33,362 nt of DNA from an uncultured Verrucomicrobiota bacterium (lineage in GTDB: Bacteria; Verrucomicrobiota; Kiritimatiellia; RFP12; UBA3636). The stretch is from assembly GCA_946534105.1 (NCBI GenBank), contig CAMNCG010000017.1, forward strand, positions 1 to 33,362, in the 5' to 3' direction. Under the pieces are notes generated by a model. It had not been told where the DNA came from. It saw only the letters and a program-made list of their open reading frames with translations, and searched no databases. How positions within the stretch are numbered: the first letter of the stretch is position 1; the number at the start of each line of letters is the position of its first letter. Positions 7,362 to 10,723 of the stretch are shown in pieces. The position numbers and the translations under genes were made by a program.

Positions 7362-7427
7362 TGCGCAAACGGATAAATCCCGCTTGCTCAAACTGGTGTA
7401 GCGCGGGCAGAAGCGCCGTGCCAGAAT
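7362..7427 (+). promoter_or_regulatory. AraC-type tandem operator and promoter of the 7454 glycosidase
   Basis: Two direct repeats, TGCGCAAACGG (from 7362) and TGCTCAAACTGG (from 7385), start 23 bases apart and flank the palindrome GGATAAATCC (7371-7380). GGTGTAGCG follows. A TGC-CAGAAT extended -10 lies at 7419-7427, 37 bases from the second repeat. No -35 is visible, as expected for activator-dependent promoters. The same elements at the same spacing occur at 27884-27949. The predicted RNA start is near 7435. Confidence 0.7.
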
Positions 7428-7453
7428 TGACGGCGAAAGGGCGCGATAGGGCC

Positions 7454-10400
7454 ATGCTGGGACCTCTAGGACAACGCAGACGCAGGTTGGGGCGCGAATC
7501 GGCCGCCGATTTCACGGCGGCGGCGTTCGCGCTTTTCCTCGCCTTGTCCGCAGCGTCCGCGCGCGGCGGCGAAATCTGGCGGCTGGGGAAGGCCGACGGC
7601 TCGCCGTCCGGGTTCCTCCCTTACCGGGCCTGGGAATACGGGAGCGCTCCGGATGTCGCGAACAGCCCCGAGATGGACGCCCTGTCCCATACGTGGCGCT
7701 TTGCCGTCCCCTCCGTGGCGACGACGCTCTCGTCGTCGCGAATCCCATCCTCGATTTGCTCCGTCTTCGAGAGCGTCTTCATGCGCGACGAAGAGGTCGT
7801 GACGGGCCTCGAACTATCCTGGGACGAATCCGCGCCCGGTTTCCGCATCCTCCGCGTCGAATGCTGCAACGCCGGCCACATGCCGGAAAACGGCCTCGGC
7901 GGGGTCGAAATCTCCCTCCCCGACGGCCGCCGCCGCCTCTACGACATCCCCGCGCGCGGCGCGGACGGCTCGCCGCCGCGCTTTTCCTACGACTTCGCGA
8001 TGCCCGTCGCCCCCGGACGCAATGCCGCGACGATCCGCGTCGTCTCCCCGGGCAAGCACGAGTCCGTGACCTTTGACTCGATCGCGCTTGTCGAATCCGA
8101 TGTCGTGCCGGAGTTCCAGCCGCTTCTGGAAATCGCATCCTCCGATCCCGACGGCGTTTTCCATCCAGGCGGCGACGCCCGCCTTGCGCTGCACCTCTCC
8201 AACGCCGATGCGGGGCTCGTCCGCTACGAGGTGCGCGACATCGCGTCGAATGTCGTCTTCCGGGGCGAGGCGGAAATCGCGGGCGGGCATGGCGAAGCCG
8301 CGCTCCCCGCGGATCGTCTCGGCTGGTTCGGCGTCTCCGCCGCCTTCCGCGACGACGAGGCGTCGTCGACACGCCAGTGCGCCGCCGCCGCAACCTCCTA
8401 CTGCGTTCTGGAGCCGCCGGAGGAGGGCTTCATCGACTCGTCGCGCTTCGGCTGCCACGCCGTGGGCGGCGACGGCTATTTCCTGCGCGACACCGCGCTC
8501 CGCCGCGAAAGGACGGAGCGCGCTCTGCGCCGCGCCCGCCTCGCCGGCGCGAAATGGGCGCGCCTGCACTACCTGAGCTGGGCGCTCCGCGAACCGGAGC
8601 GCGGCCGAGACGTCTGGGACGGACTCGACGAACGGCTCGACCTGGCCGCCCAAAACGGCCTCCTCATCCTCGTGAACGTCGTCGGCGTCCCGCGCTGGGC
8701 CTCGCCTTCGGCGGATGGAAAACTCACCGTCACCGGGGAGCCGCGCTGGAAAATGGCCGCCCCGTCGGACCTCGCCGCCTGGTCGAACTTCGTGAGCCGC
8801 CTCGTCTCCCGCTGCAGGGGGCGTGTCTCCGACTGGGAAATCGGAAACGAACCCGGCCATCAAAGCGCATTCTGGACCACGGGCAGCCCGGAGGATTTCG
8901 CCGCCTACCTCAAGACCGCCTACATCGCCGCCCACGCCGCCGACCCCGCGTGCCGCGTATATCCCGGCGCCCCGCTTGACGCGCATTTCCTCGAAGAAAC
9001 CGTCGCGGCGGCCGGGGGCGTCGCCGACTTCGACTCGCTGAGCGTCCACTACCTCGGCAACGCGAAGCGCTTCTCCTCCAAGGCGGCGGGCTGGCGCGCC
9101 CTGCGCGACGCCATCGCCCCCGGCCTCGCGATCGTGAATTCCGAGGACATGGGCTGGCATTCGGAGCGCGGGAGCGGCCCGCTCGCCGTCGCTTCCGCAA
9201 TGGTGAAGCTTCATGTCCGCGACGCGGCGGCCGGCGTCTCCCGCACCTTCGCCTTCCAGCCCTTCATCCAGGGCAGCCCCTACTCCTTCCACGACGTGCG
9301 CGGCGCGCCGCTCCCGGCCTTTGCCGCCTACCGCGCCATGACGCACCGCCTCGAAGGCGCCGCCTACGTCGGCGATCTCTCGACCCGCGAATGCGAGGCA
9401 TACGTCTTCGACCGCGCCGGGACGCCCGTCACGGTCTTCTGGAACGCGCTTTCCGTCCCGGCCGCATTCCGCGCGACGCTCGGCGGCGGGTCCTTCACGG
9501 CCGTTGACTTCATGGACAACGAGTCGCCCGCCGCCCCCGGTGCGGACGGTATTCTCGCCCTCCCCGCCGCGCCGCGCCCGCGCTATGTCGAGGGTGGCGA
9601 CTGGGACGCCATCCGCGCCGCCCTTGCGCAAAGCGCCGCCGCGCGGGCGGAGGCCGCCACGACGCATCCGCTCGGCGAAAACCTCGTCCCGCCCGGACGC
9701 CGCGCCTTCACCGCGAGCGGACGCCGCTTCGAGACCGTCGCCCATTCGGTCCCCGTCCGCTATGGCGACACCTATCTCTTCGCCGCTACGATTCGAGGCG
9801 CCGGCACCCTCGACGGCATCGTCGCCGTCCATGGCGCAGACGGTGGAGAACTCTGGCCGCGAAAGCAGGGACTCAACTGCCTCCGCGACCGCCGCGCCGG
9901 GCCGGAGTGGAAAACCGTCGCGGACACCTTCACCATTGCGGACGAAAAGGCCGCGACGCTCCGCCTCGTCCTCGTTGCCGACTTCTCGGAGCAGGCCGCC
10001 GGCGCCCCGATTGAAGTCCGGGACATCACCGTGGCGCAAATCTCGGAAACCCATTCCGCATCCAAGGCGCTTCATCGGGGCGCGTTCGGAACGGACGCCT
10101 TCGGCCCGCCGATCGCCATTCCCGGCGCGACGGCGAGATTGGCATTAGGCGGACGTTTCGTGGAAACGTCCCTGCCAGAGCACACGCAAAGTGGTAGGGA
10201 CGCGCCCACGGCGCGTCCGCAGCCTTCCCTGCGCCTCCGCTTCGAGGTCGAGGACGACGCCTTCGACCCGCCAGATGGCCCGGAGAACTGCTGGCTCAAC
10301 GATTCGATCCAGTTCGCCATCGACCCGCGCGACGACGGCACGGACTTCACCTCCTTCCGCCTCCTGCGCACGGCGGACGGGCGCGACATCCTCTACAAGG

Positions 10401-10723
10401 ACCGCAACTACACGACCCCCGAACTGCCCGACGACATTACGCGCCGGGGTGTTGTCCAGGACGCGGAGATCGCGTTCCGCCGCACGTCGTCTGGCTACTC
10501 CTTCGACCTTTCCATACCGGTTCGCGAGCTCTATCCGCTCAAGGCGGACGCGCGCGCCTTCGGCTTCAACTTCCTCGTCAACGACTCGGATGGCGGCCCC
10601 CGCGAGTGGCGGGAATGGACGGAGGGCATCGGCGGCATCAAGACCGCCGCGCCCTTTGGCCATCTGGGCAGGGAAGAAAAACAGGCAAGGCAAACGCCAA
10701 ACCAAACTAAGGAGCACAAATGA
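7454..10723 (+). CDS. Secreted GH39/GH5-like glycosidase with C-terminal CBM9-like domain
   Basis: The GTG at 7418 lies next to the -10, so ATG 7454 is the start, giving about 1089 residues. The N-terminus is Arg-rich and then hydrophobic ('AAFALFLALSAASARG'), a signal peptide. Beta-sandwich-like regions precede a clan GH-A barrel: 'AGAKWARLHYLSWALREPE', acid/base Glu466 in 'WEIGNEPGH', and likely nucleophile Glu564 in 'VNSEDMGW'. The pattern is closest to GH39-like and related enzymes; exact family and substrate are unsure. The last ~160 residues ('DSIQFAIDPRDDGTD', 'SFDLSIPVREL', 'EWTEGIGGIK') match a CBM9-like sugar-binding domain. A 72-base palindromic element (10149) forms the linker before that domain. 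The stop overlaps the next start by 4 bases (ATGA). Confidence 0.8.
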   Translation: MLGPLGQRRRRLGRESAADFTAAAFALFLALSAASARGGEIWRLGKADGSPSGFLPYRAWEYGSAPDVANSPEMDALSHTWRFAVPSVATTLSSSRIPSSICSVFESVFMRDEEVVTGLELSWDESAPGFRILRVECCNAGHMPENGLGGVEISLPDGRRRLYDIPARGADGSPPRFSYDFAMPVAPGRNAATIRVVSPGKHESVTFDSIALVESDVVPEFQPLLEIASSDPDGVFHPGGDARLALHLSNADAGLVRYEVRDIASNVVFRGEAEIAGGHGEAALPADRLGWFGVSAAFRDDEASSTRQCAAAATSYCVLEPPEEGFIDSSRFGCHAVGGDGYFLRDTALRRERTERALRRARLAGAKWARLHYLSWALREPERGRDVWDGLDERLDLAAQNGLLILVNVVGVPRWASPSADGKLTVTGEPRWKMAAPSDLAAWSNFVSRLVSRCRGRVSDWEIGNEPGHQSAFWTTGSPEDFAAYLKTAYIAAHAADPACRVYPGAPLDAHFLEETVAAAGGVADFDSLSVHYLGNAKRFSSKAAGWRALRDAIAPGLAIVNSEDMGWHSERGSGPLAVASAMVKLHVRDAAAGVSRTFAFQPFIQGSPYSFHDVRGAPLPAFAAYRAMTHRLEGAAYVGDLSTRECEAYVFDRAGTPVTVFWNALSVPAAFRATLGGGSFTAVDFMDNESPAAPGADGILALPAAPRPRYVEGGDWDAIRAALAQSAAARAEAATTHPLGENLVPPGRRAFTASGRRFETVAHSVPVRYGDTYLFAATIRGAGTLDGIVAVHGADGGELWPRKQGLNCLRDRRAGPEWKTVADTFTIADEKAATLRLVLVADFSEQAAGAPIEVRDITVAQISETHSASKALHRGAFGTDAFGPPIAIPGATARLALGGRFVETSLPEHTQSGRDAPTARPQPSLRLRFEVEDDAFDPPDGPENCWLNDSIQFAIDPRDDGTDFTSFRLLRTADGRDILYKDRNYTTPELPDDITRRGVVQDAEIAFRRTSSGYSFDLSIPVRELYPLKADARAFGFNFLVNDSDGGPREWREWTEGIGGIKTAAPFGHLGREEKQARQTPNQTKEHK
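10149..10220. repeat. In-frame inverted pair of REP-like palindromes within the glycosidase gene
   Basis: Two hairpins, 10151-10171 (GGACGTTTC, GTG, GAAACGTCC) and 10198-10218 (GGACGCGCC, CAC, GGCGCGTCC), sit in opposite orientation. Read in the same sense, both 25-base units are GCGGACG, four variable bases, GTG, the four complementary bases, CGTCCCT. The stem changes are compensatory (TTTC/GAAA versus CGCC/GGCG). The whole unit is 72 bases, a multiple of three, and has no stop, so it adds 24 residues to the linker before the CBM9-like domain. Confidence 0.8.

Follow-up and report, generated by a model that had tools for sequence, protein, structure and literature searches.

How a palindromic DNA segment comes to be read as protein inside an enzyme gene, and why it persists there, is the question raised by a glycosidase-like gene from an uncultured member of the Kiritimatiellae whose nearest relatives are MAGs from rumen and omasum. 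The gene (7418..10723, forward strand) lies in the window, the 33,362-nucleotide stretch analyzed here, and was identified from its open reading frame and Pfam matches; its 1101-aa product carries a Glyco_hydro_42 match at residues 362–502. A first-pass annotation had described two REP-like units inside it as a domesticated protein linker. We combined genome searches, orthologue comparison and codon-phase analysis across related genomes. In all likelihood, a REPIN inserted into a loop of the protein, probably through a REP-associated tyrosine transposase, and was retained as a tolerated passenger via phase filtering.

Structure of the repeat pair

The element (10149..10220, unstranded) is a REP heterodimer whose GTAG ends point inward (head to head). 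It consists of a REP-T unit (GCAGGGACGTTTCCACGAAACGTCCGC, 10149..10175, reverse strand), an 18-bp spacer (10176..10193, forward strand) that varies among the in-gene dimers of other genes, and a REP-C unit (GTAGGGACGCGCCCACGGCGCGTCCGC, 10194..10220, forward strand). The two oppositely oriented units of the first-pass annotation were confirmed, both with perfect 9-bp stems (GGACGCGCC/GGCGCGTCC and GGACGTTTC/GAAACGTCC). On its own strand a unit reads G(T/C)AG, GGACG-N4-CAC-N4'-CGTCC and GC, with TTTC/GAAA as inner stem on the left and CGCC/GGCG on the right. The unit pattern matched twice in the window (0.01 expected from the shuffled window), and the element strand folded with z = -6.8, a result equaled by none of 200 shuffles. 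With GTAG or GCAG in most units beside a 9-bp stem, the repeats carry the tag of GTAG-type REPs, defined as GTAG or GYAG at one end of a hairpin stem of 6–9 bp, and their inverted pairing is that of a GTAG-type REP dimer or REPIN.

The hairpin is selected as an element family. Across the order, 20 unit types picked by hand had every stem cell paired (100%); all nine stem pairs were kept, six of them varying on both sides, and the covariation score was 0.609 (0.113 shuffled). Selection on the hairpin within this gene had been read from the compensatory difference between the two arms, a conclusion that does not hold: the arms belong to two REP types, which existed beforehand and form heterodimers across the genus and, with other stems, the order, so the stem difference arrived with the element. 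The four distinct element-carrying orthologue sequences, a small sample, gave no indication that the hairpin has been under selection since insertion. Two stem substitutions were scored among them, GCG>GAG (C>A, Ala to Glu) in G003 and CGT>CAT (G>A, Arg to His) in G023, each breaking a pair without compensation. Substitutions in element and flank between orthologues were too few for a selection test, and three pairs of that comparison (flank identity 0.45–0.55) are not true codon alignments, so that only its other rows count.

Filled and empty sites

The 72-bp element is stop-free and read in the frame of the glycosidase, its first base falling on codon position 2. It adds GRFVETSLPEHTQSGRDAPTARP to the protein, its codon phase encodes the peptides GRFVETSLP and GRDAPTARP, and the tryptic peptide predicted for the element-bearing protein is FVETSLPEHTQSGR. 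We compared eight orthologue records, some of which probably represent one genome held in two collections. The element was present in orthologues at 95–97% identity, G001, G003 and G023 among them, and absent, with a 23-codon gap, from two records at 70–73% (given as G032 and L032, also as L032 and L038). The window genome's own paralogue (L060, 67%) is likewise without it and has a 15-codon gap. The gap that the first-pass annotation proposed to look for in orthologues exists, but not as a clean 72 bases; equally, the 72-bp length, frame and lack of stops stand, whereas the filled gene exceeds its insert-free orthologue by a net 23 codons (69 bp). The empty site reads ARLRLD-EEGLHIRF, a turn joining two strands, and the loop there measures 4 residues in L032, 12 in L060 and 27 in the window protein. 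Because the length of the flanking loop varies, the element ends could be assigned neither an exact breakpoint nor a target-site duplication. Its multiple copies in the genome, together with the missing counterpart in two orthologue records and the paralogue, argue that this REP-like pair is an insertion.

Pfam detected CBM9_1 (PF06452) in the insert-free L032 and L038 (E = 1.5e-7; L032 segment 44–186); in the window protein there was no CBM9_1 match up to E 10. Alignment mapping from L032 places the C-terminal CBM9-like domain at 10127..10624 (forward strand), split by the element. As the match in the insert-free orthologue extends over the empty site, the element sits inside the domain, at the turn of its first beta-hairpin, instead of forming a linker in front of it as first proposed. 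The AlphaFold model of the C-terminal part (pLDDT 47) was too weak to use; it places the insert in a loop between two strands. Such inserts can conceal a domain from profile searches: the CBM9-like domain is masked from Pfam here, and the same may happen to further domains encoded by these genomes.

One carrier, G023, is placed in another family, yet its host-gene protein is 97% identical, and in a second REP-carrying gene of this genome the compared flanks are >99% identical at the DNA level (L036, L069, L185). This near-identity reflects either recent transfer or a binning error.

Copies and transposases

A scaffold search of the 3.93-Mb assembly, a check that the first-pass annotation had proposed, returned seven exact matches and none for the reversed-pattern control. 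These copies lie mostly in heterodimers of a CGCC-type and a TTTC-type unit, on contigs C8, C15 (two), C17 (the window), C60 and C230. Allowing ≤2 mismatches, the window genome (G000) contains 13 units, and all 10 further genomes of the genus that were searched had at least one match (range 1 to 41). The copy number of the window genome is low compared with >100 in classic REP cases. Still, with 13 units in G000, 41 in G005 and 144 in G025, the repeat is dispersed and multi-copy, and the order-level relatives G025 and G042 each yielded >130 matches, with other stems and again mostly as heterodimers.

Most units of G005 (1.4 Mb, 56% complete; L133–L160) are extragenic by the codon model, and its TTTC unit is altered to GTAGGGGCGTTTCCACGAAACGCCCGC, a compensated change. 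Intergenic 58-bp dimers form the center of a larger nested palindrome of about 130 bp, resembling a MITE that carries a REP dimer; its outline is roughly TAGAGCGGTTTCA...TGTAGCCGTT-[dimer]-AACGGCTACA...TGAAACCGCTCTA, and it occurs at L001:1430–1570 (C8 of the window genome) and in L125, L126, L129, L130, L162 and L177.

In G025, an order-level relative of the window genome, a 163-residue protein with the motifs MPDHVHGL and YIRANPVRA matched NCBIfam NF047646 (REP-associated tyrosine transposase; 85 bits, cut-off 80) and TnpAREP (PDB 4er8). Its gene has GTAGGGACG REPs on both flanks, with stems GGCT and TTTC. A transposase of this class probably moved the window element. No REP-flanked cognate transposase was found in the window genome (assembly 87% complete) or its genus; the window genome has three Y1_Tnp genes, but these lack an adjoining GTAGGGACG REP and were dismissed as candidates. 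In this order several REP families come with transposases of their own: in G042 and G051 (L264, L268, L289) genes of the same transposase family are flanked by related GTAGGG hairpins with different stems, GTAGGGCGGTCTC..., GTAGGGCCGCCTC... and GTAGGGCGGTCGC....

Codon phase of in-gene copies

Many copies in the genus likewise lie in genes. Frames were called from the flanks alone by a codon-usage model, on which gene calls outside the window also rest. With looser thresholds, 33 of the 87 clusters from the genus together with G023 and G032 lay within one open coding frame; stricter thresholds gave 26 in-gene clusters, counted by hand as 17 independent loci. Genes carrying units encode an alpha/beta hydrolase, GH42, a glycosyltransferase, LacZ, an HMA/E1-E2 metal ATPase, an FAD-binding protein and an RNB ribonuclease. 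In the window genome, clusters inside genes numbered 4/6 (strict) or 5/6 (looser), which departs from the mainly extragenic location of REPs; the departure does not exclude membership, because PMC3733652 accepts in-gene copies as REPs.

Although five of six possible frames run through a unit without a stop, a single codon phase accounted for 42 of 43 strict in-gene units and 16 of 17 loci (binomial ~5e-6, the chance level being two of five open frames), and the sole exception, L166, is another unit type. The favored phase encodes GRDAPTARP or GRDVSTKRP in forward and GRAVGASLP or GRFVETSLP in reverse orientation. In other families analyzed by the same method, 10 of 19 units shared one phase (Fisher P = 4e-5 versus the genus, a value that overstates the evidence because related loci and the units of one dimer are non-independent). 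An artefact of frame calling was rejected, since frames came from the flanks only and the same method found mixed phases in other families. Selection on the protein could contribute by removing strongly basic frames, such as two of the other open frames of the CGCC type (VGTRPRRVR, RTRRGRVPT); there is nothing obviously harmful about the open frame ADAPWARPY, and basic frames therefore explain the bias only in part. The bias may be a new feature, as the passages on intragenic REPs consulted here do not mention it.

Phase filtering competes here with a REP subfamily adapted to coding sequence, in which 3n arm spacing and register would hold both arms in one benign frame and let the dimer spread through genes. 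The dimer lengths speak for it: dimers in genes of the genus have both arms in phase 1 and always span a multiple of three (57, 60, 63, 66, 69, 72 and 84 bp), whereas dimers outside genes often measure 58 or 67 bp and are 3n in only 12 of 31. In-gene dimers of other families often measure 76 bp, their two arms falling in different phases. Moreover, the outer arms of the larger palindrome around the intergenic 58-mers are missing from in-gene dimers. However, filtering by selection predicts the same pattern, and in-gene spacers vary in sequence and length from gene to gene, unlike copies of a single adapted dimer. We therefore regard such a subfamily as possible but rather doubtful, and the wider proposal that rumen Kiritimatiellae possess REP dimers adapted to genes, with 3n spacing, one phase and a standard Gly-Arg...Pro linker in many unrelated proteins, as unlikely.

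Origin and retention of the insert

In the favored reading, insertion followed by phase filtering, a GTAG-type REP heterodimer (REPIN) entered the glycosidase gene in an ancestor shared by all carrying alleles, as the filled and empty sites show. The landing site is a length-variable loop between strands 1 and 2 of the CBM9-like domain, where 23 stop-free codons were gained, probably by the action of a REP-associated tyrosine transposase on single-stranded hairpins. A net length of 3n and peptides containing Gly, Pro, Ser and Thr in its phase, borne by a surface loop, may have allowed the element to survive, and the phase bias of the genus suggests that inserts in other phases were purged by selection on the protein.

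Domestication, in which the added loop or the DNA or mRNA hairpin benefits the enzyme or its expression, appears very improbable. Four distinct orthologue sequences have retained the element and its hairpin is strong, but both stem substitutions went uncompensated and altered an amino acid, homologues manage without the insert, and unrelated genes bear the same one. Tolerance suffices as an explanation, and for any service to the enzyme, which the word domesticated had implied, we found no evidence; the element is probably a tolerated passenger. An ancestral segment deleted in relatives is scarcely credible, for variable loop length lends it nothing specific and the sequence matches a multi-copy mobile element that is missing from both the orthologue (70–73%) and the paralogue (67%).

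Comparison with known systems

The insertion resembles several described systems to different degrees. With the REPINs and RAYTs of Bertels and Rainey (2011, PMC3116915) it shares the inverted REP doublet as unit, and a cognate RAYT with the same REP scaffold on its flanks occurs in the order-level relative G025; it differs in that many copies of the genus lie in genes and in that a genus RAYT with REP flanks was not found. Like the palindromic elements (RPEs) of Rickettsia, the classic parallel, it entered a conserved gene without loss of frame. RPEs are in-frame palindromic repeats in conserved genes whose products can stay functional, as in the gmk case described in a review (PMC2229807); according to that account they measure 105–146 bp and are specific to Rickettsia, whereas the window dimer has 72 bp and another host.

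The closest match is the GTAG REPs of Di Nocera et al. (2013, PMC3733652), and the window element belongs to this published kind, intragenic GTAG REP dimers. That study describes dimers inside genes coding for 20–30 residues, finds the largest number of in-gene GTAG repeats in Opitutus terrae (Verrucomicrobiota) and reports heterodimers as favored in most families. Common to both are the GTAG end, the 9-bp stem, head-to-head and tail-to-tail heterodimers and in-gene dimers, a likeness set by tag, stem length and dimer layout and not by the stem and loop consensuses of families. The present case differs in its host, a rumen member of the Kiritimatiellae, in the few copies of the window genome and possibly in the nearly exclusive use of one codon phase. 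It offers, from an uncultured lineage of the gut, a clear filled-and-empty-site example of a mobile palindrome turned into protein, and a genus with >12 in-gene copies lets selection on the encoded peptide be told from selection on the hairpin. In-frame REP insertion is known from other bacteria; here, the inserts nearly always share one frame.
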